From a virus: 55,200 nucleotides of DNA. This document shows positions 6,256-53,912 of the stretch, piece after piece. The stretch spans positions 1 to 55,200 of IMG/VR virus record IMGVR_UViG_3300031355_000002. One strand, 5' to 3'. The notes beneath the pieces were generated by a model. That model was not told the origin of the DNA, made no database searches, and saw nothing but the letters and a program-made list of their open reading frames with translations. Numbering within the stretch: position 1 is the first letter of the stretch; each line of letters opens with the position of its first letter. Position numbers and translations under genes: made by a program.

Positions 6256-9083
6256 TAGTAACCTCGCAAGAATGCCCACATCATTCGGAAATGCTCGTAG
6301 TCCTTCGTGAGCATGTTGGTAAAGTCTGTGGAATCCGCGAGTGGACCAACACCCATGCTGGTCACTTCGTGGATCCCATCTGAATACACCCGGCCAACGT
6401 ACTCGTCGTAGAACTTATCCCTCTTGACCTTCTCGCGTCGATACCTTCGTCTCGGAACCGGTCGTTCGCCCACAGTGCGAGCAGAGCTCCAACTCAACGA
6501 CCTCCTTCGTTGGTGACGATTCCTGTACTCCAGGTGATGCCCAAACTCGTGCCAGATGGTATTCTTCGACTCCTTCAACTGGTACTGGACTTGGTTGATA
6601 CTCTTCCAAGCAGCAGCACGTACACGCCGCTCGAATAGATACGTTATACGGTTCAACTGACTGTCTTCAAGGATTGATTCATCACAGGCCCGCAGAATCT
6701 GGTCCATCCACTGTCTGTATTGTTTCGCTTGATCTGGGCTCACCCCTCCTGAGGCCAGCTGATCAGCAAAGTTTCTGTAGATTTTTCGCCTGGTCTCCGT
6801 GAGAGCAATGCCTTCACCCTGTCCATTGAGTTGGGCGAGAGCCTTAAGCACATCATCAGGGTTCAAGACTTTTGCCTGGCTTTCACCAAACATCAGTGAG
6901 TCAAGCTCAGCCTTAGCCCTTTCGAGCGCCTGCTCAAGATTACGCTCCCGCTTGGTTACTTTCTTCATCCTACCAAGCTGTTGCTGGCGGTAAGTCAGTG
7001 ACTTCTCTGAGAAGCTCTCGCGAGTTTTCCTCAGCTTCTGCTGTAGGGTGCTGACTTGGTTACCGAGCTTAAGCTCTCGATCTGCGATTCTCGCTAGCTC
7101 CCCACTCAACTCCTTGGACTTGTCGAAGTCCCTGTTACGAATTGCCCGCTGCTTCTCACGTCGTACCCTGTTGTACTCTTGAGTCGCTGACTTGCGTTTC
7201 TTCTTCGCTTCAGCAGCGGCCTTCTCGAGATCCTCTACCTCTTTGGACAATGCCTTCAAATCGTCCGGGATCGCAATGTCATCCGGGACGTTAGCTGGTT
7301 TTGGTGCCTTGGGCCCAGGCTTCTTCTTTGCCACAGGTTTGCGGCCCTTTGTTTTGGGCACAGGCTTGATGGGTTTCAAGTCGGCCTTTAGGGCATCAGG
7401 CACCTTGCGTTTGAATGAGCGAGCACGTTTTGCCAGACGACTACGCGACTTCTTGAACTCGCCAAGTTGCGCAAGTAGCCCCGCATCGTCAGGCGTCTTC
7501 TCAAGGCCTGCCAACGTGCTGCGTATGTTATTGTCTATGTCGTCGATCTGGTCCACCAGGCCATTGTAGACCTGCGCGTCACGATTGACAAGCTTGGGCT
7601 TCGGAGCAGGAGGTTTTGGAGGCGTAGGTGGTTTTGGAGGTCGTGGCCCACCACCTGGGAGCTTACGCATAATACCGCGCTTCTTCTTCATGAGCTTTGC
7701 GCGTTGCTTCTTCAGTTCCGACTTGGACGCCTCCGATGCAGTTGCAATCTTCCCTTCGACCTCTTCAATCTCTGCCTTAACTTCTTCCAGTTGACGTTCC
7801 GCCCTTGCAATCTTCTTGGGATCGGTAAGCTTGGGAGGCGGGGCCTCAGCAAATGTCTCGAGTGCTTCTTGACCTTCGGTAGGTGGATCGTACCAAAGGT
7901 CCTTCGCAATAGCCCGGTCCTCAGCAAGTATTCGACCTTCAGATGGAACGCGGATTCCCTTGGCACGGGCAAGCGCCTGTACTTCAGCGTTGCGCGGATT
8001 GAGTGCGGCCGCTCTTCGAATAATCTGTCTATCGGTGCGACGTTTAAAGTCTGGACCAATGATGTCATCAAAGCCGATGATGCCCTTTCTAAAGAGCTCG
8101 CTTTTCGTTTTGCTTCCTGTAAGAGCTCGCGTCGTAAGTGATGGCTGCTTTCGAGCCCACTCGTCAGCAGTTGTGCCACCTCGGATGAAACCATCACTCT
8201 CAACTGTATGATCTCCCCTGACCTTGTAATTCCGTACCCGTGTAATATCTTCATCCATGAGCTCCTGAATCTCTGGGTCTCGAAATACTGGGACGAGAAT
8301 GGATCGACAATTCCAGTGAGCGGGAGGCCCGGGCGGTATATCTTCTAAGCCCCACGTCCGACCATGCAGCATCATGCATATCTCGGAGGTACGATCATCC
8401 AGCACAGCCTCCCATCGATACCCGGCGAAGATATCTGAGTTCGCTTGGATGATGGCCTTCTGCGCATCGTTGTATGCTGCGTTGAGATTGGTGCGAGCGA
8501 CTCTCTCGGCCGCTGCTCTGTCAATGTCAAGAGCTTCACCGATCTTGGTGGCTGTGTCACGAACTGACTCACCATTGACGACTGAGTTGGTCAAGATGTT
8601 ACGCACCTGCTGCTGTGCATCGTTGACTGTGTTGGCGAGCGCAGTGCCGGGACCGACACCCATCACTGGATGTTCAGCCGCAGCATACGCTGCTTCTGGG
8701 AAGATCTGCGAGAAGGAGCCAGATATCTGTGTGCGTATGTCACCGGGCAATGACTTCGCTGCAAGCTCAAAGTCACCGACAGCCAAGTCGAAGGAAGCCT
8801 CTTTCATCGAGAGCAGAGAGGTATTGACTTGACCGAACCCGCGCTTAAGCAGGTCATTGACATCTCGTACTGTGCCTTTGGCCTTTGCAATAGCTCCGGG
8901 CGAGTCGATGTACTTCCCAGCCTTGGTGTATTCACGCATATTCTCTCGAATAGTGCGCTGAGCTTTGCGCTTGACCGAGAGAAGCTGCTTCCGTAGGATC
9001 TCCGCTTGCACTTCCTCAACAGGTCGGAAGGCGTCATGTCGATCTATGAGTTGCTGGTAGAACGTCCTCGGTTTCTTCGCCAT
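6255..9083 (-). CDS. Mu F-like minor head protein fused to a zinc-metallopeptidase-like domain
   Basis: 942 residues. About residues 165-275 are the Mu F / SPP1 gp7 head-morphogenesis domain (AAERVARTNLNAAYNDAQ, YRWEAVLDDRTSEICMMLHG, GPPAHWNCRSILVPVF). About 430-740 is a long Lys/Glu/Arg-rich coiled coil broken by a Pro-rich stretch near 480. The C-terminal ~130 residues contain WHEFGHHLEY, an HExxH zinc motif at about 845-849, and about 56 residues later HEVTSMG, whose Glu could be the third ligand. This pairing is typical of gluzincin-type peptidases attached to some phage head proteins. The start overlaps the upstream stop as TAATG. It lies between portal-side genes and the connector, consistent with a minor capsid role; protease activity is inferred. 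Confidence 0.8.
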   Translation of the reverse strand: MAKKPRTFYQQLIDRHDAFRPVEEVQAEILRKQLLSVKRKAQRTIRENMREYTKAGKYIDSPGAIAKAKGTVRDVNDLLKRGFGQVNTSLLSMKEASFDLAVGDFELAAKSLPGDIRTQISGSFSQIFPEAAYAAAEHPVMGVGPGTALANTVNDAQQQVRNILTNSVVNGESVRDTATKIGEALDIDRAAAERVARTNLNAAYNDAQKAIIQANSDIFAGYRWEAVLDDRTSEICMMLHGRTWGLEDIPPGPPAHWNCRSILVPVFRDPEIQELMDEDITRVRNYKVRGDHTVESDGFIRGGTTADEWARKQPSLTTRALTGSKTKSELFRKGIIGFDDIIGPDFKRRTDRQIIRRAAALNPRNAEVQALARAKGIRVPSEGRILAEDRAIAKDLWYDPPTEGQEALETFAEAPPPKLTDPKKIARAERQLEEVKAEIEEVEGKIATASEASKSELKKQRAKLMKKKRGIMRKLPGGGPRPPKPPTPPKPPAPKPKLVNRDAQVYNGLVDQIDDIDNNIRSTLAGLEKTPDDAGLLAQLGEFKKSRSRLAKRARSFKRKVPDALKADLKPIKPVPKTKGRKPVAKKKPGPKAPKPANVPDDIAIPDDLKALSKEVEDLEKAAAEAKKKRKSATQEYNRVRREKQRAIRNRDFDKSKELSGELARIADRELKLGNQVSTLQQKLRKTRESFSEKSLTYRQQQLGRMKKVTKRERNLEQALERAKAELDSLMFGESQAKVLNPDDVLKALAQLNGQGEGIALTETRRKIYRNFADQLASGGVSPDQAKQYRQWMDQILRACDESILEDSQLNRITYLFERRVRAAAWKSINQVQYQLKESKNTIWHEFGHHLEYRNRHQRRRSLSWSSARTVGERPVPRRRYRREKVKRDKFYDEYVGRVYSDGIHEVTSMGVGPLADSTDFTNMLTKDYEHFRMMWAFLRGY

Positions 9084-9635: not shown

Positions 9636-11358
9636 TTTCGTCTAGCTCCTCTTCATCACTCCCATCATCTACTCCGTCACCATCACCAAAGAGATCACCC
9701 TCTCCACCGATGATACGTGCAGTCCTCGCACTCTCCTCAGCAACAACTCGGCTATGCTCCTCATCGCCATATCCACGCATTGCAGCCGCAGTCTCGGCGG
9801 ACAACAGCCCAGTCGTCTTGTCTTTCTGGACGATCTCAGACCGAGTCTTGTCATCATCGAAGTATGGGGCCTCATCGATCTCTTTGTGTATCTTCGCCAG
9901 GTCGTCTTGAGTAATGTCTGGCATCAGCAGAATCTCAGCAACTTGCTTGTCGATCCTGCGTTGATACTCAGGTGATCGCACAGCAGAGCGGAGGCCCTTC
10001 AGTTTGCCCGCTTCTTCGATACGATCATCAGTCGTCTTCAGCGTGTACTTCTCGGGGTATGTGACCGTGACTTCCATGTTCTCTTCCCCAGACATCATAT
10101 GGAAGAGCTCAGCCATGTCACGCTCACCCGACTCGAGCGCACGGCCGAGGTAAGCGAGGCCCGCCTCTTCACCGACGCGATCTGCCATCTTGGACGCACC
10201 CGACTGCTCAACAGCCTTGACTGATAGGCTGACGAGAGCGAGGTCGACGAGCGTCCGGATATCCTTGATGAGTGTATCTTGTTTCTCCATCGAGACCTTG
10301 AGATTGTCGACTCCCGGGTTGATGAAGTCGGGGCGGTCTGTACCCTCTCTATATGTCAGCCCCTTGCCAATTCCGATACGTCGCTGCTTGTCCCCGCTAG
10401 TGGTTCCAGGGTCTCGTTCAGTCAGCGTATCCTCGCCCGATCCTGCGCCGTCCTGCCGTGCCTTCGTCCCTCGAGCGCGAATGCCCTGGACACCCTTCGG
10501 CAACTGCTGTGTATAGATCGGGAAGTTCCCTCGCCAGAGGAAGTCCATGTCTGTGCTGGCCAGGTTCAAGAGGGCTATCTGATGCTCTGCTATCTCACCC
10601 ATCAGCGAGGCAACCAATCGGAATTCAACAATGGGGATTCTGTCGATGGGAAGCACACGGCATTCACCCATCGTCTTACCTGACTTGTCCATCGTCTTAA
10701 CGAACACGCCAGGCCCAGACATCTCACCAGCACATGGATCGTTGATCGGCCCCTCTGGCACCATCTTCATGTACCGATAAATCTGCTCAGCTTTATACGC
10801 TAGGCCCGTGTCTTCGTCGGTGAGCTCTCGAGTGAGTTCGAGAAGGACCGCTGAGAAGTTCCCGTTTTCATCATAGGCCCAACTCAGCATGTTCTCTGCG
10901 TTGAGAGCGTAGAAGTACGGGTTACCACTGTCTTCTGCTCGCGTCACACCTGACGAAGCTTCTGGTGCATCGACTACGACGAATCGCTTCCCTTGTGTGA
11001 GCAGCAGCGGGATGACATCCAGCACCATGAACGAGTTGATGGAGTTGTTGAAGCCATCCACGTTTGTATTCATGATCCTCTGGTACAAGTCAGATCCTGC
11101 GCGCTTTACATCAGGGATCCGTACAGCGAGAGCATTGCGGATGATATTGATGGCGCTCCGCGCATGGGCGGGTATGTACGTGATCTTCTTCCGAAGGATG
11201 AAGTCATCTGTATGCTCTCGCTTCGAATATCGTTCGAGATACCCATCTCGGAATGATATCCCTCCCTGATAACAGAGCCTCCACTTGATCCACTCTGCGT
11301 ACATCTCCATGTACTCAGGGTGCCGAATGCTTGTAAGCGTTAGCGCATCCTTAGCCAT
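9607..11358 (-). CDS. Portal protein (DUF4055-like)
   Basis: 583 residues. The N-terminal half contains YLERYSKREHTDDFILRKK, then NAENMLSWAYDENGNFSAVL; a central RIPIVEFRLVASLMGEIAEH is followed by ALLNLASTDMDFLW and FPIYTQQL. This order resembles DUF4055-type phage portals. The tail is Asp/Glu/Gly-rich (GDGDGVDDGSDEEELDENGN). Portals form the dodecameric DNA gate at a capsid vertex and dock the terminase. It lies downstream of the terminase on the same strand and upstream of the F-like head protein, the usual order. The ATG at 11358 follows GAGGGA. Confidence 0.75.
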   Translation of the reverse strand: MAKDALTLTSIRHPEYMEMYAEWIKWRLCYQGGISFRDGYLERYSKREHTDDFILRKKITYIPAHARSAINIIRNALAVRIPDVKRAGSDLYQRIMNTNVDGFNNSINSFMVLDVIPLLLTQGKRFVVVDAPEASSGVTRAEDSGNPYFYALNAENMLSWAYDENGNFSAVLLELTRELTDEDTGLAYKAEQIYRYMKMVPEGPINDPCAGEMSGPGVFVKTMDKSGKTMGECRVLPIDRIPIVEFRLVASLMGEIAEHQIALLNLASTDMDFLWRGNFPIYTQQLPKGVQGIRARGTKARQDGAGSGEDTLTERDPGTTSGDKQRRIGIGKGLTYREGTDRPDFINPGVDNLKVSMEKQDTLIKDIRTLVDLALVSLSVKAVEQSGASKMADRVGEEAGLAYLGRALESGERDMAELFHMMSGEENMEVTVTYPEKYTLKTTDDRIEEAGKLKGLRSAVRSPEYQRRIDKQVAEILLMPDITQDDLAKIHKEIDEAPYFDDDKTRSEIVQKDKTTGLLSAETAAAMRGYGDEEHSRVVAEESARTARIIGGEGDLFGDGDGVDDGSDEEELDENGNPISGGQ

Positions 11359-14585: not shown

Positions 14586-14957
14586 CTATTCCAACGCTTT
14601 GTAGCAGGTCTGTACGGTATGCTGGTCACCCTCATCTAGCGTACCACTGAGCCTCTCCTGTATGATGCCCAAGGCAATCTGTAGTGAGCTGGTAAGAGCT
14701 TTGATCTTTTGGCTGTCAACGTCACCCACTTCTTTCACCAACTCCAAGGCGGACCTGGCAATCCTTCGGTCATCGTCGTTCATCGCACGATGCCGGAGCT
14801 GCCTAGCAGTCGTATGCAACGACCGTTTGAGCTGACCCACTGTGGCGCGCAGCTTATCGAGCTCCACGTCTACTTCGTCGATGTAGTAGTAGTTCGCGCC
14901 TTCCTCTTGCTCGAACATTACATGTGAATCATCACACGCTATTTTAGTCAGAGGCAT
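14586..14957 (-). CDS. Hypothetical helical protein
   Basis: 123 residues starting MPLTKIACDDSHVMFEQEE. Mostly charged helices (VDVELDKLRATVGQLKRSLH, ALELVKEVGDVDSQKIKALT). AAGGAG precedes the ATG at 14957, which overlaps the upstream gene by 14 nt. No recognisable motif. Confidence 0.65.
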   Translation of the reverse strand: MPLTKIACDDSHVMFEQEEGANYYYIDEVDVELDKLRATVGQLKRSLHTTARQLRHRAMNDDDRRIARSALELVKEVGDVDSQKIKALTSSLQIALGIIQERLSGTLDEGDQHTVQTCYKALE

Positions 14958-15168
14958 TGGTCTTCTCCTTATCGTTTCTGTAAGCTAGGAGTAGAGACCC
15001 CAGCCATTCCTGCTCAGTCTCTGAGATTCCCGCACCATGATCCACCGACCCACACTCTGAGCAACCCCACTCAGTGCCGATTTGAAAGCCATTCACATCG
15101 CGGACTGTCTTGTTCATGAACAGACGACGTGCCTGGCATGAGTGGCAGTATGATTCAATGGTCTTCAT
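14944..15168 (-). CDS. Zinc-ribbon mini-protein
   Basis: 74 residues. Two Cys pairs (CHSC near residue 8, CSEC near 36) separated by a beta-prone stretch form a treble-clef or zinc-ribbon-like knuckle. AAGGAT lies before the ATG at 15168. Function unknown. Confidence 0.7.
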   Translation of the reverse strand: MKTIESYCHSCQARRLFMNKTVRDVNGFQIGTEWGCSECGSVDHGAGISETEQEWLGSLLLAYRNDKEKTNASD

Positions 15169-15170
15169 GG

Positions 15171-15479
15171 TTATCCTTCTGGTCGCTCGATTGTCATACC
15201 CACATGAATCTTGATACCGCGTCCCATGGACCAGCCGCTCATCGTCAGCTGAAGTTCATTACGGAGACGGCGCAGTACCTCTTCTATGGCACCGTCGTCT
15301 CCCCTCATCTTCCGGCAGTCATCAGTGACCCAAGCATGGAGAGCCGGAATTCCTTCGAGTTGTAGCGACACTATTGTCCTCCCGGCCACTTGAATGCTTC
15401 GGCCTTCCCCCACAACACCGCCCAGGCATCTTTGATACGACACCATAACGAACCGAGGAGTGGACGAGCAGGTATCCAC
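15171..15479 (-). CDS. Hypothetical protein, GTG start
   Basis: 102 residues. I used the GTG at 15479 because AAGGA lies about 7 nt upstream; an ATG 33 nt downstream has no site. The middle (SIQVAGRTIVSLQLEGIPAL) and the end (SMGRGIKIHVGMTIERPEG) are beta-prone. No family recognised. The start is less certain than for its neighbours. Confidence 0.5.
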   Translation of the reverse strand: MDTCSSTPRFVMVSYQRCLGGVVGEGRSIQVAGRTIVSLQLEGIPALHAWVTDDCRKMRGDDGAIEEVLRRLRNELQLTMSGWSMGRGIKIHVGMTIERPEG

Positions 15480-15491
15480 CTGCCATCCTTC

Positions 15492-15560
15492 TCAGTCTGT
15501 GTAGTTTGTGCGTGGTCGATCAACGTATAGAGTTGCCACATCACTCACCATCCTATTCAT
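15492..15560 (-). CDS. Possible 22-residue mini-gene in a small gap
   Basis: The gap 15480-15591 holds an ATG (15560) frame of 22 codons (MNRMVSDVATLYVDRPRTNY...) ending just before the ribosome site of the next gene. Its own ribosome site is weak. It may be a translational coupler or chance. Confidence 0.2.
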   Translation of the reverse strand: MNRMVSDVATLYVDRPRTNYTD

Positions 15561-22383: not shown

Positions 22384-22872
22384 ATGCAAACGTTCCTACC
22401 ATTCCCAGACTTTCAGAAGAGCGCTCGTATACTCGATAACAGGCGACTCGGCAAACAGCGGGTTGAGACACTTCAGATTCTGAGAGCTCTGACATATCCA
22501 AACGCTGCATGGCGCAATCATCCCGCTGTGAAGATGTGGAGAAACCATCGCCATGCGCTCGCACTCTACGGCGTCACTATATGCCGTGAGTGGCGATCCC
22601 GGGGATTCTGTGATCGTACAGAGGCCAAGATTGCACGATTCCTCCCGTGTCCCCTGAACCAAAAGCAGCACAGACATCACTGTCAGATTAGCGAGTCACA
22701 GACACAAGTGAGAGTCGAATACTACGACTACTACTGGGAGTTCCCACTACCGAGCTGGTTCGGCTCTGAGAAGTTCCACCGAGCGCATCGGTCGAACCTG
22801 AAGCGTAAGGATTCAGTTTATTACAAGAAGTTCCGGATCTCCAGCCGCCTGCCGTACGTGTGGCCAGTATAG
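22384..22872 (+). CDS. Pyrimidine-dimer DNA glycosylase-like protein
   Basis: 162 residues. MQTFLPFPDFQKSARILDNR, then RLGKQRVETLQILRAL, WRNHPAVKMWRNHRHALALYG and PSWFGSEKFHRAHRSNLKRK, ending LPYVWPV, match the MSMEG_6728 / endonuclease V-like pyrimidine-dimer glycosylase family. These proteins excise UV photoproducts. The start is 1 nt after the preceding stop. A repair gene near the head of an early operon is common in phages. Confidence 0.8.
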   Translation: MQTFLPFPDFQKSARILDNRRLGKQRVETLQILRALTYPNAAWRNHPAVKMWRNHRHALALYGVTICREWRSRGFCDRTEAKIARFLPCPLNQKQHRHHCQISESQTQVRVEYYDYYWEFPLPSWFGSEKFHRAHRSNLKRKDSVYYKKFRISSRLPYVWPV

Positions 22873-44696: not shown

Positions 44697-47528
44697 ATGA
44701 AAACACTCATCCAATTCATCAGGGAAACGATCGACCCAAAGGAGTACTACAAGAGCATCTTCCCAGAGATAAGTTGGGGAGGTGCAACTGAAGCTAGGGT
44801 CATCTCGCCGTGGACTGCGGAGAAAGATCCGAGCCTATCAGTAAACGGACAGACTGGAGCTTGGTACTCTTTCTCTGCCGATGATGAGTTTGGTGGAAAG
44901 TCGATAGTCTCATTCCATGCGAAATATCACGAATGCTCACAGAGTGATGCAGCAAAGCAGTTGTTCCAGCAATTCATCCATCCGACAGTTGACGAGCGGG
45001 CTATCCGTCGATGGGAACGAAGCCTCAATGGAACGCCCAGCGCGAAGAAATACCTCCGTGGCAGCAGACTAATCAGCCACAAGATACTAAAGCGATACCA
45101 GATTGGTTGGAACGGTAACCGATTCACTGTCCCAGTCAGAAATGAGTGGGGTATATGCGTGAATGTCAAGCTGTACGATCCACTAGCAAAGAAGCGCGGC
45201 CTACCCAAGATGCTCAACTATCACAAGGACGATGAGCCCAGGAAGTTTGGAACACCGCCGATGATCTTCCCGCTTCCTGTGTTGATAGGCTGCGAGGGTT
45301 TCATAGTCGTCTGTGAGGGTGAATGGGACGCGCTCGCATTGCTGTCCATCGGTATTCCGGCTGTAACGAGTACAGCGGGAAGCAAGTCGTGGCCAGATCA
45401 GTACACCCATCTATTCAAAGGGTTGGACGTTGTCATTGCATACGACAACGATAGTGCAGGGGAGAAGCACAGTAAGAAGTACGTGTTGAAGCACCTACTC
45501 AATGTTGCAAAATCAGTGAAGCAAATTAAGATTCCAAAGGTGTATGGCAAAGACGTTACCGACTGGATCCTCAACAAGAAGCTGATGCGCAAAGCTAAAT
45601 TCTGGGAGCGAGAATTCAAGAGGGCCAAACTGCTGGTGGAGAATCCTGAAGAATCACCAGACAACCCTGACGTAATAGATGTTCCATTGAACTACGCTAG
45701 CGAGGCTCAGTACTTTATGAAACGAGTGAGAGTCAATGCACTAGTGAGTGGCAAGGATACTGCACCCTATATGTTGCCCGCTAAGTTCAGAGTGACCTGC
45801 CAGCAGAACTGTGATGAGTGCAGATTAGCGGAAGAGGAATTCGTTGAGCGTACAATTGATCCAAAGACTCCACTAGTGTTGAACCTAACAGACGCGAATC
45901 AGGCATCCACTAGGAAACTAATGCTCGGGCTAGCGGGCATACAACCGAGGCCACACTGTAGTGCGAAGATAGACGTAGTCCAGACATTCAACGTTGAGCA
46001 GGTCTTGCTGATTCCGACGCTCGACAACACCAATGGTCAGTACGTGATGAGATCCGCATATTACGTAGGCCACGGTCTAGCAGCTAACCGATCATACCGA
46101 CTTGAAGGGATGACGCTTCCACATCCGAAAGATCAGCACACGACACACCTCTTTGACACTGCGCACCCACTGCAAGGTGAGATCGAGACGTTTGAGATGA
46201 GCAAAGACATCAAGAAGCAGCTCAACAGATTCAAACCTGGTAAGTTGAAGCCATTAGCGAAGCTCATGTCACTGGCAGAATGGCAATCAAGAAACATCAC
46301 GAAGATTCATGAGCGTCCTGACCTCCACGTTGCCGTGGATCTAGCGTTTCATTCGGTGAGAGCATTCAATTTCAACGGCGAGTTCATCAATCGTGGAATG
46401 CTCGACATACTCGTCCTCGGTGATACTCGGTGTGGGAAGGGCTACGTCACAGAACGACTCACACGATACTATGGCCTTGGTGACGTTGCCTCGGGAGAGA
46501 ACTGCACATTCGCCGGACTTGTTGGAGGTTTACAGCAAGTCGGGAGCAGATGGTTGGTGACTTGGGGTGTCATCCCGCTCAACAACAATCGCTTAGTGGT
46601 GATAGATGAAACGTCGTCACTCAGTGAAGAAGAGATCGGCCATATGAGTCGAGTAAGAAGCGAAGGTGTCGCAGAGATCAGCAAGATCATTAAGGAATCG
46701 ACACAGGCTAATACTCGACTCATATGGTTGAGTAATCCGCGGAGTGGTAGGCCGATCATGAGCTACAACGCAGGAGTAGAAGCCATCAAGGAACTAGTGG
46801 GAGCCAACGAAGATATCAGCCGTTTTGACTTCGCACTGACTGTAGCGACTGATGAGGTTCCAAGTGAGATCATAAACGCGCCGGCAGATAACAGCATCAA
46901 AGATGCCGACCTGTATCCAAAGGATATTTGCAGGTCACTTGTGCTCTGGGCGTGGTCGAGAGACCCTGACCAGATCGAGTTTAGCAGTGGCGCTACAAAG
47001 ATGATCATTAAGGAAGCTATAAATTTCGGCCACTCATACTCTCCAACAATACCTCTAATCCAGTCGGAGAACATTCGTATCAAGCTGGCCAAGATCTCTG
47101 CAGCCATCGCTGCAAGGCTGTTCAGCTGCGACAAAACTGGCGAGAAGCTCATCATCCGATCAACCCACGTCCGGTGCGCGTGTGAGTTTCTGAAGATGAT
47201 ATACTCCAAGGCGAGCATGAGCTATCACACATTCAGCCGATCCGCCCAGGCCATCTCCAAGATTAAGGATCCGTCAAGCATATTCGCCAATCTTGGCGCA
47301 CAGAGACGTGCAGCCATGGGTGGACTGCTTGAGATTCATCAAATCACTCCCGACAGTCTAGCTGACTTTACGGGAGATACAGTGTTGGCGAAATCGCTCA
47401 TTGGTGAGCTCGTTCGTCTGCGCTGTATATCAAGGATCGAGAAGAGCAACTGGTACTTGAAGAACGCAGCATTTAGCTCGTGGCTCCGGGACCAGATGCG
47501 AAAGGGCAGGAGGAGTAAGCATGGCTGA
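44697..47528 (+). CDS. TOPRIM primase fused to MCM-like AAA+ helicase
   Basis: 943 residues from ATG 44697. Residues ~33-75 match a DnaG/CHC2 zinc-finger-like domain by pattern (SPWTAEKDPSLSVNGQTGAW, then GGKSIVSF) but without its Cys. A TOPRIM domain follows: FIVVCEGEWDALALLSIG (Glu207) and LDVVIAYDNDSAG (Asp250, Asp252). About 340-500 contains VTCQQNCDEC and an OB-like N-terminal MCM region. The AAA+ core has Walker A LVLGDTRCGKG (573-582), VASGENCTFAGLVGGLQQ, Walker B LVVIDETSSL (633-642), sensor-1 RLIWLSNP and Arg finger EDISRFDF (Arg709). The C terminus is winged-helix-like. It should prime and unwind DNA at the fork. The identification is by motif reading only. Confidence 0.85.
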   Translation: MKTLIQFIRETIDPKEYYKSIFPEISWGGATEARVISPWTAEKDPSLSVNGQTGAWYSFSADDEFGGKSIVSFHAKYHECSQSDAAKQLFQQFIHPTVDERAIRRWERSLNGTPSAKKYLRGSRLISHKILKRYQIGWNGNRFTVPVRNEWGICVNVKLYDPLAKKRGLPKMLNYHKDDEPRKFGTPPMIFPLPVLIGCEGFIVVCEGEWDALALLSIGIPAVTSTAGSKSWPDQYTHLFKGLDVVIAYDNDSAGEKHSKKYVLKHLLNVAKSVKQIKIPKVYGKDVTDWILNKKLMRKAKFWEREFKRAKLLVENPEESPDNPDVIDVPLNYASEAQYFMKRVRVNALVSGKDTAPYMLPAKFRVTCQQNCDECRLAEEEFVERTIDPKTPLVLNLTDANQASTRKLMLGLAGIQPRPHCSAKIDVVQTFNVEQVLLIPTLDNTNGQYVMRSAYYVGHGLAANRSYRLEGMTLPHPKDQHTTHLFDTAHPLQGEIETFEMSKDIKKQLNRFKPGKLKPLAKLMSLAEWQSRNITKIHERPDLHVAVDLAFHSVRAFNFNGEFINRGMLDILVLGDTRCGKGYVTERLTRYYGLGDVASGENCTFAGLVGGLQQVGSRWLVTWGVIPLNNNRLVVIDETSSLSEEEIGHMSRVRSEGVAEISKIIKESTQANTRLIWLSNPRSGRPIMSYNAGVEAIKELVGANEDISRFDFALTVATDEVPSEIINAPADNSIKDADLYPKDICRSLVLWAWSRDPDQIEFSSGATKMIIKEAINFGHSYSPTIPLIQSENIRIKLAKISAAIAARLFSCDKTGEKLIIRSTHVRCACEFLKMIYSKASMSYHTFSRSAQAISKIKDPSSIFANLGAQRRAAMGGLLEIHQITPDSLADFTGDTVLAKSLIGELVRLRCISRIEKSNWYLKNAAFSSWLRDQMRKGRRSKHG

Positions 47529-47979
47529 GAAACTCATTCACTTCCCGGAAGATGTTCATCGGGTACTAACACTGATGGAGGCACACAAAGCCCCAAAGAC
47601 TATCCAGGGATTTGACTTGATCTGTCGGGAGGCAGATCAGCTTAGACTGGGATTGCTAAACAATGTCAACCGCTCAAGCGAAGACTGGAAAACACGGTTT
47701 CTGCTGATTGGCCATGCCGCACTTAGCATCGTCATTGAGTGGAACGCCTTCGCCTTTGCTGAGCTGCTGCTTAAGAAGCATACGCTGTACGGAATCAAGC
47801 CGCTCCTGTTATGGCGAGAGCTGGGTGTCTGTGTTCGATTAACCAACAAGATCGAGCGCATGAAGAATATGATGGCAGACCCGAGTGCAGACACTCAGGG
47901 TGAATCTTGGAACGACACACTCTCAGACATAGTGGGGTACTGTGTGCTGGGGTGGTGGTTGAAAGAGAAAGGGTACTAG
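47521..47979 (+). CDS. DUF1599-like (nucleotide-modification-associated) protein
   Basis: 152 residues. LLKKHTLYGIKPLLLWRELG, then VCVRLTNKIERMKNMMADPS and ESWNDTLSDIVGYCVLGWWL match DUF1599 / nucleotide modification associated domain 1: a G-V-x-x-R-L-x-x-K-h-x-R core with a final D-T-x-x-D-I-x-x-Y. It starts 8 nt inside the helicase end, and a dUTPase follows, which supports a nucleotide role. Confidence 0.7.
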   Translation: MAEKLIHFPEDVHRVLTLMEAHKAPKTIQGFDLICREADQLRLGLLNNVNRSSEDWKTRFLLIGHAALSIVIEWNAFAFAELLLKKHTLYGIKPLLLWRELGVCVRLTNKIERMKNMMADPSADTQGESWNDTLSDIVGYCVLGWWLKEKGY

Positions 47980-47980
47980 G

Positions 47981-48649
47981 ATGAACATTGACGACGTAGC
48001 AATGGACTCTATTGTAATGCCGGAGGGTAGTGTGATAGCGGCTATCTTCGAGCATCAGCACGACCTGACGATGAAGTACAAGGACATCGAAAAGAAGAAC
48101 GGCGCGAACTTTCCAGTGCCTCCCTGGAACATCGATGACAAGTTTGTCCAGTGGAGACTGAAGGATCTGTTCTGGCGCGTCACCGAAGAACTCGCAGAAG
48201 CACTCGACGGTGGCGGCTTCCGTGGTATGGCCAACTGGGAGAAGCGTTGGAATGATGATGCTGATGTCCGACACTTCTTCGAGGAACTAGCTGATGCGCT
48301 CCACTTCCTGGTTGAAGCATCACTAGTGGGTGGGCTCGAACCCGTAGACATTCAGGAGTACTGGGAGGCTGACATCGATGCTGGTGGGTCGACATCAAGC
48401 TCGGATATTCAGAAGAGCTGTGCCGATATCGTCTGGGCCATCGGCCTCGCAGCCAATTGCCTCAAGAACAAACCATGGAAACTGACTCAGATGCCAACCG
48501 ACAAACCGGCATTCAATCGACACATGATGGATGCATGGTGTGAATTTATCGACCTCTGGGAGGGGTTGGGCTGCTCCCAAGAATTCGTTTACAAACTCTA
48601 CTTCCGCAAGAACGCAGTGAATCAGTTCCGACAGAGGAGCAACTACTAA
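47981..48649 (+). CDS. Dimeric all-alpha dUTPase-like nucleotide pyrophosphatase
   Basis: 222 residues. Magnesium motifs are VTEELAEALD (Glu69, Glu70, Glu73) and HFFEELADALHFLVE (Glu101, Asp105), the EExxE and ExxD pattern of dimeric dUTPases (type 2). The end VYKLYFRKNAVNQFRQRSNY is also typical of them. It would hydrolyse dUTP (or a modified dNTP) to the monophosphate, supplying dUMP and keeping uracil out of DNA. Strongly linked to the flanking nucleotide genes. Confidence 0.8.
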   Translation: MNIDDVAMDSIVMPEGSVIAAIFEHQHDLTMKYKDIEKKNGANFPVPPWNIDDKFVQWRLKDLFWRVTEELAEALDGGGFRGMANWEKRWNDDADVRHFFEELADALHFLVEASLVGGLEPVDIQEYWEADIDAGGSTSSSDIQKSCADIVWAIGLAANCLKNKPWKLTQMPTDKPAFNRHMMDAWCEFIDLWEGLGCSQEFVYKLYFRKNAVNQFRQRSNY

Positions 48650-49497
48650 TGTCCTTAGAGATCCATGGCAAAGACATAACCCGAGTAGTGAATGCAGCAC
48701 TGCGCCACCACTTGGAGACTCCTCAACCAGACGCAGTGTTGAGCATAGAGACTCATATGTTCAATGTTACACTTGCTGCTGACTCCTGTGAGTATTCGTT
48801 GGACCTCGGTAAGCATGTTTGGTTGAACAAGTCAAGATGGACCAGGTTAATTAGGGAATATGTCTCTGCGGAAGATATCTGGCGGTTCCTTCGGCAGGCC
48901 ACGGAGATCTATAAGGGCACGGCGAGAAAAGGCGCAACTGCAAATATGCTCTTCAAAGACCCAGTGAGGTACGAGAAGAAGCATCGTTGGGGTGGATGCC
49001 TCATGGGCGCCACCTTCCGTGGAGAAGAAGGTAATCACCCCACCATTACCTTCTTCTCCCGGACAACATACATGGGCTACATGGGATTGCTGGATGCAGG
49101 CATAGCTCATATCATGGCGCAATACATAGCCAAAGACTTGGATGATTTGTCGGGGATCGGGTTCCGATGGCACATCACGAGTCAGCAACTTCATTGTTTC
49201 AAGACTATACCGTACATCTTCAGTCAGAAAGACCTAATAAAAGATCTGGAGAAGTACGCCAAGAAGACAGATGCCTGGTGTAAGAAACACCTCACTCCAA
49301 CGTGGAGATATATGACAAAGTGGTACAAGAAGATTCAAGAGGCATACGAAGAGCACGGCGTCAAGATGCTCAACAAAGAGAAATATGGTCCATTCCGCAG
49401 GATCAAGCGAAGGTGGCTCGAGTACAAGAGATACCTAAAGAAGAACATCCCGCCATCTTTGCTCATCTCCAACCTCGACTTTAACAAGGCGCTTTGA
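48649..49497 (+). CDS. Thymidylate-synthase-superfamily protein, divergent
   Basis: 282 residues. By eye it aligns to the thymidylate synthase core: RWGGCLMGATFRGE gives a nucleophile-position Cys117; PTITFFSRTTYMGYMGLLDA gives Arg138, and Asp149 falls 11 residues after it, where thymidylate synthase has the dUMP-reading Asn; FRWHITSQQLHCF gives His182. Spacing from Cys to Arg (21) is close to the family value (20). It may act on a cytosine or other nucleotide, or be a catalytically altered relative. The C-terminal ~70 residues are an extra basic helical region. TAATG start. Confidence 0.6.
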   Translation: MSLEIHGKDITRVVNAALRHHLETPQPDAVLSIETHMFNVTLAADSCEYSLDLGKHVWLNKSRWTRLIREYVSAEDIWRFLRQATEIYKGTARKGATANMLFKDPVRYEKKHRWGGCLMGATFRGEEGNHPTITFFSRTTYMGYMGLLDAGIAHIMAQYIAKDLDDLSGIGFRWHITSQQLHCFKTIPYIFSQKDLIKDLEKYAKKTDAWCKKHLTPTWRYMTKWYKKIQEAYEEHGVKMLNKEKYGPFRRIKRRWLEYKRYLKKNIPPSLLISNLDFNKAL

Positions 49498-49498
49498 C

Positions 49499-50035
49499 AT
49501 GAGCAAGAAAAGCAGACTCCGGAAGAAGCGGAACGAGAAGTGCAGGAAGTGCAATCTGTACAAGTCTACAGTGAATCGCTGCGTGATGGGTCGTGGGGAC
49601 ACTAACTCACCCATCATGCTGATCGGAGAGGCCCCAGGTCAAGCTGAGTCAGAGACCGGCAAACCTTTCATGGGTCGAGCGGGTAGACTTCTTAATGAGA
49701 TTCTGGTTTATATCGGAATCGACCCGTACATTACGAACTTCTGCAAGTGTCGACCTCCCGAGAATCGGACACCCGAGTTCAAAGAGCTTCGGAGATGCTT
49801 CACATACTTAGAGTCAGAGATCAAGATCATCAAGCCACGAGTCATTCTGATCATGGGCAAGACGGTAGCTAAGAAAGCGAAGTTTTCCAAGCAGCGGCTG
49901 ACAGGCAAGCCCTTCTCGTGGTATGATTCAATTGCCAGGATTACGGTACATCCTGCATATGTATTGAGGAACCGAACCAAGAAACCAATCTTAGTGGAAG
50001 CCCTAGAGTGGGCCAAGAGGGAGGCGACGAAATGA
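49499..50035 (+). CDS. Family 4 uracil-DNA glycosylase
   Basis: 178 residues. The active-site strand is LIGEAPGQAESETGKPFMGR (42-60); the HPAYVLRN motif holds His150. Cys15, Cys18, Cys84 and Cys100 have the usual spacing (16 between the last two) for a 4Fe-4S cluster. A basic tail (MSKKSRLRKKRNEK) starts it. It removes uracil from DNA, arguing against uracil-substituted phage DNA. Confidence 0.85.
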   Translation: MSKKSRLRKKRNEKCRKCNLYKSTVNRCVMGRGDTNSPIMLIGEAPGQAESETGKPFMGRAGRLLNEILVYIGIDPYITNFCKCRPPENRTPEFKELRRCFTYLESEIKIIKPRVILIMGKTVAKKAKFSKQRLTGKPFSWYDSIARITVHPAYVLRNRTKKPILVEALEWAKREATK

Positions 50036-50802
50036 GGATCTACACGAATGCACTCGAGGCGGTCAAAGAAGTCGAGCGTGACCTGTGGGAGATGGGGATC
50101 AGCGTTCATCCTCAGACGATGCAAGACAAAGACGTAGCCGACGATGAAGACTACGAGACGAAAGAAGTCAGGGGTTATGGCTTCCAGATTGTTGACGCTG
50201 CCTGGGACAAAGTTGTAGAGAACGCAGTCATCGAGCATATCCTTCCCAGAGAACAGTGGGAAGCAGTTAACGAATACATCTCTTTGGAGTACAAAGACCG
50301 CATCGGTACCGTCCAGCTGAACCCAGGTGGGTCATGGAAGGCACGCTCACAGATATGGAACGAGTTCATGCACGATGGGAAGTTTGCATATACCTATTCT
50401 GAGCGCATGGCTCCACAACTCTCTCGCATCATCAAAGAGCTGAAAGAACGGCCAGGTACGCGACAGGCCATCATAAACATCCATTCTAACATTCGTGGAT
50501 GCTGCGAGCCGGAATCGAGCGTGACGATCTGCGCGGATGCAGACCTCAATAATATGGGAGGACATGCACGAATTCCGTGCTCGATGTATTACCAGCTTAT
50601 GATTCGTGAGAATAAGCTAGACCTCATCTACACAATGCGTTCGTGTGATTTCCTGGTCCACTTCCCGGTAGACATCATGCTGGCTATGAGGCTGCAGACC
50701 TATGTGGCGAAGTGGCTCAGTCTTGGGGTGGGGTTATTCACCTATTTCACCGGTTCGCTTCACGCATACGTCAAGGACATGAGGGTGCGTGGCATCTTCT
50801 AA
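50032..50802 (+). CDS. Thymidylate synthase/dCMP hydroxymethylase-like protein
   Basis: 256 residues from ATG 50032 (ATGA overlap; GGGAGG upstream). Core motifs: PGTRQAIINI with Arg144, RIPCSMYYQLMI with catalytic Cys183, IYTMRSCDFLVHFPVDIMLA with Arg203, Asp206 and Asp214, and TGSLHAYVKD with His244. Asp214 stands where dUMP-specific thymidylate synthases have Asn (177 in E. coli); the Asp form is the mark of dCMP hydroxymethylases (T4 gp42). So the likely substrate is dCMP, giving 5-methyl- or 5-hydroxymethyl-dCMP. Confidence 0.75.
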   Translation: MRIYTNALEAVKEVERDLWEMGISVHPQTMQDKDVADDEDYETKEVRGYGFQIVDAAWDKVVENAVIEHILPREQWEAVNEYISLEYKDRIGTVQLNPGGSWKARSQIWNEFMHDGKFAYTYSERMAPQLSRIIKELKERPGTRQAIINIHSNIRGCCEPESSVTICADADLNNMGGHARIPCSMYYQLMIRENKLDLIYTMRSCDFLVHFPVDIMLAMRLQTYVAKWLSLGVGLFTYFTGSLHAYVKDMRVRGIF

Positions 50803-50822
50803 CAGATGTGCATGGAAGGGCG

Positions 50823-50978
50823 ATGGCAAAACGGCAGTCCGTAGAGAGTACGGTGACTGATATCGCTGCTACCGAAGGCGACAGCGACCATTGCCCGACT
50901 ATGCTGAAAGGAACAGACGATGACGGAGACAATCACGCCGAAGTCCATCGGAAACCTGGTACGAGAGTACAGGTATAG
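50823..50978 (+). CDS. Possible 51-residue protein
   Basis: ATG 50823 with GGAAGGG just upstream, in the gap before the HTH gene. MAKRQSVESTVTDIAATEGD, then an acidic KGTDDDGDNHAEVH. It overlaps the HTH gene by 59 nt in another frame, so it may be spurious. Confidence 0.35.
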   Translation: MAKRQSVESTVTDIAATEGDSDHCPTMLKGTDDDGDNHAEVHRKPGTRVQV

Positions 50979-51189
50979 GATGAGAATTAGCACAACAGAG
51001 CTGGCCAAGCGTGTTGGAATTTCACAGGCTCAGGTATCGCGCCTAGAGAATGGTCAGCAAGGGTTCAGGTCTGGAACACTCATTCGACTTGCAATTGTCC
51101 TCGGAGTGAAGCCATGGGTATTCTTTATGACATCTACTGAACGTCTCGCCGCAGAGAAGGCCAAGGGACTCAAGATAGAGAGCAAATGA
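50920..51189 (+). CDS. XRE-family HTH regulator
   Basis: 89 residues. RISTTELAKRVGISQAQVSR, then LENGQQGFRSGTLIRLAIVL is a Cro/C1-type HTH (about 23-60). AAAGGA is well placed. There is no dimerisation or protease domain. It could repress the candidate operators in 54.58 kb or 21.44-21.52 kb. Confidence 0.8.
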   Translation: MTETITPKSIGNLVREYRYRMRISTTELAKRVGISQAQVSRLENGQQGFRSGTLIRLAIVLGVKPWVFFMTSTERLAAEKAKGLKIESK

Positions 51190-51539
51190 TGAGCAAGAAA
51201 AAATCACCACCAAGGTGCCCATGGGTCGGAGCCAAATTCCACGGGTTCAAACATCCGGAAGAGCTGCATGTCTTTCGGAGACTGATGTCTGCGAACTCAG
51301 CTCTTCCTCAGAAACAGCTAGAGCAGTCAGCTCCTGATAAAGACCTTAATGGTAGAATCTCGCATCCAGAACCAACAACTACTACTTCAGCGAGGTTGCT
51401 ATCGCTAATAGACTGGGGCGTAATAAAAAGAAGAAGAGAAGGGAAGTACTTCGTCTATTGGGTCCCATTTACTACAAAGGCGTACATGAACCATAAGTAT
51501 CGCAACAGGAAGGTCCCATGGAATGAGCCGACCTACTAG
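51186..51539 (+). CDS. Hypothetical protein, possible winged helix
   Basis: 117 residues starting MMSKKKSPPRCPWVGAKFHG (ATGA overlap). Its later half ARLLSLIDWGVIKRRREGKY, then FVYWVPFTTKAYM resembles a winged-helix strand pair. It overlaps the dCMP deaminase start by 17 nt. Confidence 0.6.
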   Translation: MMSKKKSPPRCPWVGAKFHGFKHPEELHVFRRLMSANSALPQKQLEQSAPDKDLNGRISHPEPTTTTSARLLSLIDWGVIKRRREGKYFVYWVPFTTKAYMNHKYRNRKVPWNEPTY

Positions 51540-51945
51540 AGAGCAGATTCACATCACCACAGCCAAGATGTGGGCATTAAGATCTGTATGTAAGCGACTG
51601 AAGGTCGGTGCAGTCATTACTGACCTCTCTATGCGCCGCGTCCTTGCTGTGGGGTACAATGGTCCAGCTAGCGGGCTAGACCATGAGCGGTGCAATACCG
51701 AGGAAGGTAACTGTGGCTGCCTCCACGCAGAGTGCAATGCAATTGCGCGAGTTGACAATACGCTTCCTGGCAAGATAATATTCGTGACCATCTCTCCGTG
51801 TGTGATGTGTGCTCAGATGATCATCCAAGCCGGGATTACCAAGGTCTACTACGTGGATGAGTACAGGGATAGGGAAGGGCTATGGCTACTAGAGCGATGT
51901 CACGTCGAAGTCGAAAGAATACCAGAACGTCTGGTCCTAACCTAA
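51523..51945 (+). CDS. dCMP deaminase
   Basis: 140 residues. Zinc motifs: CLHAECNAI (His68, Glu70) and ISPCVMCAQMI (Cys93, Cys96). VGYNGPASGLDHERC is typical of ComEB/dCMP deaminases. It converts dCMP to dUMP, feeding thymidylate or drawing down dCMP. Its last 64 nt overlap the polymerase gene. Confidence 0.88.
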   Translation: MSRPTREQIHITTAKMWALRSVCKRLKVGAVITDLSMRRVLAVGYNGPASGLDHERCNTEEGNCGCLHAECNAIARVDNTLPGKIIFVTISPCVMCAQMIIQAGITKVYYVDEYRDREGLWLLERCHVEVERIPERLVLT

Positions 51946-53912
51946 GTGGCAAATACGTTGCTCTTGACGTTGAGACGACGGGGCTTGACCCATACCATGG
52001 AGCCAGGATATTCTGCTGGGCCTACTACACCGAGAAGGGTGAGTGGGGGTTCATGTTCAAGACCCCGCGGAACCTGGCATGGATTGAGCGTCTACTCAAC
52101 GATCCCGACAAGACAGTCATCTTCCACAACGCCAAGTTTGACCTCAAGATGTTCAGCTTCGAAGGCATCAACATATACTCGCTGAAGTGTCGCGTTGAGT
52201 GTACCCTTATCATGTCCAAGCTATGGGATGAGAATGGCCAGCACAACCTCCGCTATCTGTCGATACGCTATCTTGACAGAGACACCACAGACAAAGACGA
52301 AGTCGAAGGCTGGTGCAAGAGGAACAAGCGCAGGTTCGTCAAAGAGAAGGGCCGAGAGCCCAACTTCAAAGACGCGCCGAAGAAGATGGTGAAGCGCAGG
52401 TGTGTGTGGGATGTGGAGTCAACACTCAAGCTCTACGCCTTCCTGAAGCCTCGAATCAACAAGACCTGTGCATCACTGTATGAAACCGAAAGGCAGCTCA
52501 TTTTCGTCACCATCGACATGGAAAACACCGGTGTGATGGTTGACATTACGAGAGCCAAGAAGCTCAGGCGAAAAGCTCTCGTAGACCTCAGGAAGATCCA
52601 CGATGACCTCAACCGTATGATCTGCCCGCTGACGGTTCAAAAGAAAAAGAAGGGTGAGTACGTCGAAGTAACCATAGACGACTTCAACCCAAACAGCAGT
52701 TCCATACAGCTTCCCGCTGCGTTCAACAAAGTTGGCATTGAGCTCAAGTACAAAACGAAACCCAAGAAGGGTAGGAAGGGTGGATCGAAGACGGGAGGCG
52801 GGAACTGGTCGTTCGATGAGTATGCCATGGTTCGATACGTATCCAAACCACTGGCGTCCATCATACGTGACTCTGGAGAAGAGGGCTGGGAAACTGATCG
52901 ATGGTACAAAGCTCTTAAGACAGCCATCAAGAAACACTCGCTTAAGAAGCGAGAGCTTCTCCCTCCACTCATCCTCAAGTATCGTGAACTGTCCAAGATG
53001 GTCAGCACGTACTACGACCACATCATAGATGACGCAGTAAAAGTGCACAAGACACCGAGTGGCCGCGAGATCGGGGTGCTGCACTGCAACTTCAATCAGA
53101 GCGAGGCGATGACGGGTCGCTTCAGTTGCAGCAAGCCAAACCTCCAGAACATCCCACGTATCCTCGGTCCGCGTGAGTGCTTCATCCCGAGAGTCGGTCG
53201 TAAGAACTGGCACCTCGACTATGCTCAAGTTGAGATGCGTATGTTCTGCCACTTCTCGAAGGACAAGAAGATGGCAGCTGCAATCGATAAGGATATCCAT
53301 CTCGCTGTCGCTTGCGAGATATACGACAAGGCCGAGAAGAAGATATCTAAGGAACAGCGGAAGCGAGCTAAGGGTGTTAACTTCGGCATCATCTATGGGT
53401 CTGGTGCAGCAACGATGTCTGAGACGCTCACCAAGAAGGGCCTTCCGACTTCGAAGATGGAAGCAGCAACGCTGGTTGCGAGCTACCACCGCAAGTTCCC
53501 GTCTGTAAGACAGATAACAAATGAGTTTAAGGTGCAGCTGCATAGAGATGGATATGTACCCAATCCATTCGGTCGTCGATATCACGTCCCGACCAAGGTC
53601 GGATACAAGCTACTCAACTACATGTGCCAGGGGACATCAGCAGATATCATGAAGAAAGCAATGGTAGAGGCTTGGCTCTGGCTTAGGGAAAACGGGTTCA
53701 AGACTAAAATCATAATGACAGTACACGATGAGATAGTGTATGAGGTCCCCCCAGCTGAGGCGAAGAAAGTGATTCCCAAGCTACTTGAGATCATGGAAGA
53801 TCTAAAGGGATTCTTCGTACCAATCACGGTCGAAGCTGAGGTTGCACCGAAGCGTTGGAGTGCGAAGAAAAAACCTGAAGAAGTAGGCTGCAAGTGGGTG
53901 AAGAATGCCTAA
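51882..53912 (+). CDS. Family A DNA polymerase with 3'-5' exonuclease
   Basis: 676 residues from ATG 51882 (GGGAAGGG upstream). Exo I is LDVETTG (Asp29, Glu31), exo II FHNAKFDLKM (81-90), exo III near VWDVES (Asp177). Polymerase motif A is HLDYAQVEMRMF (Asp446), motif B KRAKGVNFGIIYG (494-506; Phe501 at the sugar-discrimination site) and motif C TVHDEIVYEV (His615-Asp616-Glu617). A basic Gly-rich insertion (KTKPKKGRKGGSKTGGGNWS) lies near 291-310. This is the replicative polymerase of the phage. Confidence 0.92.
   Translation: MATRAMSRRSRKNTRTSGPNLSGKYVALDVETTGLDPYHGARIFCWAYYTEKGEWGFMFKTPRNLAWIERLLNDPDKTVIFHNAKFDLKMFSFEGINIYSLKCRVECTLIMSKLWDENGQHNLRYLSIRYLDRDTTDKDEVEGWCKRNKRRFVKEKGREPNFKDAPKKMVKRRCVWDVESTLKLYAFLKPRINKTCASLYETERQLIFVTIDMENTGVMVDITRAKKLRRKALVDLRKIHDDLNRMICPLTVQKKKKGEYVEVTIDDFNPNSSSIQLPAAFNKVGIELKYKTKPKKGRKGGSKTGGGNWSFDEYAMVRYVSKPLASIIRDSGEEGWETDRWYKALKTAIKKHSLKKRELLPPLILKYRELSKMVSTYYDHIIDDAVKVHKTPSGREIGVLHCNFNQSEAMTGRFSCSKPNLQNIPRILGPRECFIPRVGRKNWHLDYAQVEMRMFCHFSKDKKMAAAIDKDIHLAVACEIYDKAEKKISKEQRKRAKGVNFGIIYGSGAATMSETLTKKGLPTSKMEAATLVASYHRKFPSVRQITNEFKVQLHRDGYVPNPFGRRYHVPTKVGYKLLNYMCQGTSADIMKKAMVEAWLWLRENGFKTKIIMTVHDEIVYEVPPAEAKKVIPKLLEIMEDLKGFFVPITVEAEVAPKRWSAKKKPEEVGCKWVKNA

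Follow-up and report, generated by a model that had tools for sequence, protein, structure and literature searches.

We analysed a 55.2 kb virus record of a soil phage (IMG/VR record IMGVR_UViG_3300031355_000002, positions 1 to 55,200; this whole stretch is called the window below) and found in it two genes of the thymidylate synthase (TS) superfamily, named here TS-B and TS-A, which form a conserved module shared with hundreds of related phages. Invariant active sites, the nearest solved structures and a T4-like gene set support the view that both proteins read cytidylate and that a modified cytosine is the product. With middling confidence, we interpret the block around them as a cassette modifying cytosine at the nucleotide stage, in which TS-A would modify C5 of deoxycytidylate (dCMP) and TS-B would take the product further.

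TS-A is clearly a member of the TS superfamily; it matched PF00303 with 47.2 bits, above the curated cut-off of 24.3. Its Arg203 is followed 11 residues later by Asp214, the same spacing as between Arg166 and Asn177 of Escherichia coli TS and between the Arg and Asp of T4 gp42 and of AfhB. Among 152 TS-A proteins Cys183, Arg203, Asp214 and Tyr122 (the counterpart of Tyr94) are invariant, His244 (the counterpart of His207) is kept in 151, and the residue after the catalytic Cys is always Thr or Ser; this residue is Thr in gp42 and AfhB, and His in TS of the type specific for deoxyuridylate (dUMP). Thus, in place of Asn177 and His147 of dUMP-specific ThyA, Asp and Thr/Ser are present throughout the family. 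Asp177 turns the TS of E. coli or Lactobacillus casei from a dUMP to a dCMP enzyme (cited in PMC8670742); in the MetaGPA study positions 177 and 147 were those that best separated TS of cytosine-modified and unmodified contigs, with Asp177 marking the former (PMC8670742). Foldseek searches with the AlphaFold model of TS-A (predicted local distance difference test, pLDDT, 90) gave MilA and AfhB as best matches (E ∼4e-15; for MilA, template modelling (TM) score 0.73, root mean square deviation 3.0), and AfhB was also the best phmmer match of the window protein. The nearest solved relatives, AfhB, MilA and then the N229D mutant of L. casei TS, are all of cytidylate type.

Position 86 divides the family: 66 of the 152 TS-A proteins, including that of the window, have Glu and 85 have His, a difference that may mark two chemistries. 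Members that use folate have a catalytic Glu (Glu60 in T4, Glu58 in E. coli, Glu68 in MilA; PMC6400193), of which Glu86 is the probable counterpart by sequence anchoring; AfhB has Phe at the probable Glu58 place.

As judged from its predicted structure and from enlarged-family profiles, TS-B is a distant member of the same superfamily, and we assign this unnamed family to it here. TS-B had no sequence match in Pfam, NCBIfam or PDB, none of 78 members matched PF00303, phmmer and profile searches against PDB found nothing, and PHROG 13667, of which TS-B is a member, has no recorded function. The structure model is confident (pLDDT 94.5). All 24 PDB matches found by Foldseek at E ≤ 0.001 belong to the TS superfamily and the first twelve are cytidylate enzymes, with AfhB (9iqu, E 6e-6) at the top and with MilA and T4 gp42 also among the leading matches; a BFVD search agrees with the TS fold. 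The kinship, invisible to single-sequence searches, becomes visible via the structure model or enlarged families. While the first hhalign comparison of TS-B with TS-A was not significant (1.4% probability), the TS-B profile, enlarged once, detected a TS-A (E 3e-5). Comparing the enlarged families by hhalign gave P 1.4e-4 with a reported probability of 26%, the pairs Cys117-Cys183, Arg138-Arg203 and Asp149-Asp214 being in register.

In TS-B, Arg138 and Asp149 are again 11 residues apart. Tyr71, Cys117, Arg138 and Asp149 are invariant in all 146 proteins of the largest alignment; moreover, these four are the sole invariant columns among 14 TS-B proteins that share about 20% identity. Since active-site residues remain invariant at such a low identity, selection evidently maintains TS-B as an enzyme. 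Judging by how the structural elements are ordered, Tyr71 is likely the counterpart of Tyr94 and TS-B seems to be without the segment bearing Glu58, Trp80 and Trp83 (the folate region); no counterpart of the catalytic Glu (Glu60) was identified in TS-B.

A preliminary description, made from the letters of the window, had claimed two TS-superfamily genes flanking a uracil-DNA glycosylase (UDG), each with Asp 11 residues after the conserved Arg (149 and 214). Both claims were borne out: the open reading frames (ORFs) are in place, the UDG scores above the TIGR00758 cut-off, and alignments show the Asp as invariant in the 146 TS-B and 152 TS-A proteins, so it is no coincidence. The further claim that this Asp is a mark of hydroxymethylases has to be corrected; it marks cytidylate reading generally, as it is also present in the dCMP hydroxylase AfhB and in the CMP hydroxymethylase MilA.

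We detected TS-B in 85 phage records; the IMG/VR stretches that carry it number at least 91. We fetched 80 viral loci via TS-B; in 78 of them the contig reached far enough past TS-B to be informative, and in all 78 TS-A was located just downstream on the same strand. When loci were fetched by TS-A similarity, TS-B was near TS-A, mostly just upstream, in 66 of 78; in the other 12 no TS-B was detected within the 6 kb examined, and the original TS-B profile gave none elsewhere in their records. When iterated further without restriction, the TS-B profile merged with TS-A, and the presence of TS-B was recounted using a TS-A-free profile. TS-A and TS-B are therefore a conserved module, in which the two genes often overlap and TS-B pairs with either the Glu or the His type of TS-A. 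Other conserved neighbours are genes of dCMP deaminase (78 loci, downstream of the TS pair), PolA (75), a dTMP-kinase-like protein (68) and MazG/dUTPase (57). Two phages, Zuko of Streptomyces and Triscuit of Microbacterium, are annotated with this same gene order; the annotations of Gordonia phage Emalyn and of Mycobacterium phage Muddy, where TS-B is gene 47 and TS-A is gene 46, differ slightly from it. Bacterial genomes yielded only two weak TS-B matches, both in contigs of metagenome-assembled genomes, and the TS-B profile had no match in the genomes of T4, Mosigvirus and ColaCorta.

Some loci carry additional copies. Five of them (L094, L095, L124, L131 and L087) have two tandem TS-B genes followed by one TS-A, i.e. 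three TS-superfamily genes in a row; L025 has two TS-A genes of different types (7880-8584 and 14719-15516), one beside TS-B and the other ∼6 kb further.

From the observed fold, residues, gene order and co-occurrence we infer substrates, reactions and base as follows. The dUTPase_2 protein would hydrolyse dCTP and dUTP to monophosphates; TS-A would bind dCMP, with Arg203 on the phosphate and Asp214 on the base; Cys183 would attack C6, and C5 would be modified, most likely by a hydroxymethyl group from methylene-tetrahydrofolate. Hydroxymethylation is favoured for the window TS-A because Glu86 is kept where folate-using relatives have Glu58/60/68. TS-B would provide a second cytidylate site (Tyr71, Cys117, Arg138, Asp149) and most likely carry the product of TS-A one step further by folate-independent chemistry; its action on this product is suggested by the fact that TS-B was never seen without TS-A, whereas TS-A was seen without TS-B. 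A kinase (dTMP-kinase-like in many relatives) would then make the triphosphate, to be incorporated by the phage polymerase, and dCMP deaminase would supply dUMP for normal thymine synthesis. As no carbamoyltransferase was found in 44 TS-B phage records and glycosyltransferase family 2 was found in only 4 of the 44, the modified base is probably a small one, or else its synthesis is finished at the level of the nucleotide.

The preliminary description had arrived at a modified cytosine (or related base) too, made possibly in two steps, and had suggested that the protein starting at 48649 (TS-B) may catalyse something new. The modified cytosine is supported by the active sites, the nearest structures and the T4-like genes, although hydroxymethylation is not implied by the Asp alone; the two-step part, with TS-B doing something new, survives as a guess that gene co-occurrence favours. 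One could speculate, tentatively, that TS-B founds a folate-free family of the TS fold, in which cytidylate that is modified beforehand would be activated via Cys, Tyr and Asp and a second group added while it is still a nucleotide, to give a so far undescribed modified cytosine in actinophages and soil phages.

Several observations weigh against the proposed pathway. TM-scores fall below 0.5 when TS-B is compared with solved TS structures, and both the Tyr71-Tyr94 equivalence and the absence of a folate region were read from element order rather than from superposition. The match of Glu86 to Glu58 was likewise made without a superposed structure, and an automatic alignment did not reproduce it; also, with His replacing the catalytic Glu in 85 of the 152 TS-A proteins, folate use is uncertain. 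Loci with TS-A only could hide a diverged TS-B that escaped detection. Finally, the tree joins TS-A with AfhB, a hydroxylase linked to flavin adenine dinucleotide, and excludes T4 gp42 (support 98/94).

The last point bears on the main rival to folate-dependent hydroxymethylation, that TS-A is an AfhB-like flavin-dependent dCMP 5-hydroxylase producing 5-hydroxy-dCMP, with TS-B modifying this product or helping; we consider it rather unlikely. Besides the common clade, it agrees with AfhB being the best phmmer match of the window TS-A and the best fold match of TS-B, with the absence of the catalytic Glu from AfhB and His-type TS-A alike, and with the presence of TS-superfamily 5-hydroxy-dCMP synthases in Mosigvirus (PMC13390438), whose genomes encode AfhB. 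However, the window TS-A is of the Glu86 type, and MilA, a hydroxymethylase of folate type, is equal to AfhB as a fold and profile match; MilA is outside the tree sample. Going by the residues of the window protein, we lean to hydroxymethylation.

The near-obligate adjacency of the two genes and their frequent overlap could also be expected if TS-A and TS-B were different subunits of one hetero-oligomeric enzyme that share the phosphate-arginine job. TS enzymes are dimers in which phosphate-binding arginines come from the partner subunit. The second of these arginines is lost in TS-A (Arg127 is replaced by Gln in 138 of 152 proteins), and most TS-B proteins are still basic close to the position that is probably equivalent to Arg126. 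Still, such an enzyme is unlikely: TS-A occurs at 12 of 78 loci with no TS-B detected, both types of TS-A are found paired with TS-B, no TS-B/TS-A fusion ORFs were found, some loci have two TS-B genes per TS-A, and the full catalytic set of TS-B, unneeded in a mere partner, is invariant.

Genes of dUTPase, dCMP deaminase and TS are common phage supply genes, so the block could simply feed the dTMP and dCTP pools of a phage with standard bases in its DNA, and no conserved hypermodification genes are located nearby. This is quite improbable given that the residue converting E. coli or L. casei TS to a dCMP enzyme is invariant here in two families. Besides, Triscuit (L005) carries, in addition to TS-B, a canonical ThyA with Asn177 and His (10197-10994) next to its TS-A; because this normal Asn-type ThyA is encoded as well, the pair is not simply Triscuit's thymidylate synthase. 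That TS-B is a non-catalytic regulator or a nucleotide-binding pseudoenzyme, to which the seeming absence of the folate-binding segment and the lack of kinship in single-sequence searches would point, is very doubtful, as all 146 proteins keep the Cys, Tyr, Arg and Asp, and a pseudoenzyme would be expected to lose the nucleophilic Cys.

In T4, the dCMP hydroxymethylase gp42 works alongside dCTPase, dCMP deaminase and a kinase, and cytosine is thereby replaced by modified cytosine. The genes surrounding the TS pair parallel the T4 genes for dCTPase, gp42, dNMP kinase and cd, and gp42 has the same Cys, Arg and Asp (Asp179), with Thr after Cys; on the other hand, gp42 falls outside the clade of AfhB and TS-A, gene 42 of T4 is next to a beta-glucosyltransferase gene, and T4 has no TS-B. 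AfhB, the dCMP hydroxylase of phage HY126 (PDB 9iqu, 9iqc; Mosigvirus type), shares with TS-A the superfamily, a Thr after the catalytic Cys, the Asp of position 177 and the presumed dCMP substrate, but the sequence identity is ∼20% and Phe replaces Glu as described above; AfhB phages have no TS-B and carry sugar-modifying genes and glycosyltransferases (PMC13390438). MilA, the best fold match of TS-A, has Asp186 at the equivalent place; it is, however, a ribonucleotide enzyme of antibiotic biosynthesis, adapted to CMP by Lys133 and Ala176 (PMC5175136), where TS-A proteins mostly have Gln145 and Ser204. The MetaGPA cassette of TS and carbamoyltransferase resembles our block in that its Asp177-type TS is found together with domains of dCMP deaminase and pyrophosphohydrolase (PMC8670742), while here a second TS-fold gene stands in place of the carbamoyltransferase.

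If the proposal is true, a module of two enzymes for cytosine modification is widespread among phages of Gordonia, Mycobacterium, Streptomyces and Microbacterium and among soil phages, with a bearing on their susceptibility to restriction, type IV defence and CRISPR, and TS-B, a family annotated as hypothetical, would gain the status of an enzyme with a predicted substrate. Literature searches on Gordonia, Mycobacterium and Rhodococcus phages of this type gave nothing decisive on modified DNA. TS-B is carried by easily grown laboratory isolates, among them Muddy, a phage used in therapy against Mycobacterium abscessus.

The conserved gene run of the window occupies positions 47521-53912 (+ strand) and includes, in this order, genes for a divergent DUF1599 protein, dUTPase_2, TS-B, family-4 UDG, TS-A, two small proteins, dCMP deaminase and PolA (Table 1).

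Table 1. Features of the conserved gene run and probable active-site codons of TS-B and TS-A (window coordinates)
Feature	Coordinates	Strand	Evidence
DUF1599 (nucleotide modification associated domain 1) protein, divergent	47521..47979	+	PF07659 17.3 bits (cut-off 25)
dUTPase_2 / all-alpha NTP pyrophosphatase, candidate dCTPase/dUTPase	47981..48649	+	PF08761 E 2e-11
TS-B, divergent TS-superfamily protein, 282 aa	48649..49497	+	phrog_13667 E 2e-34, predicted structure
TS-B, probable active-site codon Tyr71	48859-48861
TS-B, probable active-site codon Cys117	48997-48999
TS-B, probable active-site codon Arg138	49060-49062
TS-B, probable active-site codon Asp149	49093-49095
Family-4 uracil-DNA glycosylase	49499..50035	+	TIGR00758 145.5 bits (cut-off 125.3); PF03167 E 1e-29
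TS-A, cytidylate-type TS relative, 256 aa	50032..50802	+	PF00303 E 2e-12
TS-A, codon Glu86 (probable Glu58 counterpart)	50287-50289
TS-A, codon Cys183	50578-50580
TS-A, codon Arg203	50638-50640
TS-A, codon Asp214	50671-50673
dCMP deaminase	51523..51945	+	PF00383 E 3e-18; phrog_174 E 2e-44
Family A DNA polymerase (PolA), last gene of the conserved block	51882..53912	+	PF00476 E 4e-72

The dUTPase and dCMP deaminase that had been described near the pair are real, and ORFs homologous to dUTPase_2 are present at many related loci. The DUF1599 gene, also named in that description, stands on less firm ground: the window protein is below the Pfam cut-off, while six of seven aligned proteins, itself included, match PF07659 weakly. 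The genes are tightly packed; the TS-B start coincides with the end of the dUTPase gene (48649) and the ATG of TS-A overlaps the UDG stop by 4 bases. The listed PolA start (51882) overlaps the deaminase gene, so the true start is uncertain.

The window and L009 (8816-9412) are the only places where family-4 UDG was seen as a gene of its own, lying between TS-B and TS-A; in many relatives a similar UDG domain is in the same ORF as PolA. A Pfam scan of 20 other ORFs of the window found no partner modification enzyme, the sole lead being a gene in the structural half of the genome (11716-12477, − strand) with a weak match, below cut-off, to polysaccharide pyruvyl transferase (PF04230). The window also encodes a pyrimidine dimer DNA glycosylase (22384-22872; PF03013, E 3e-25).

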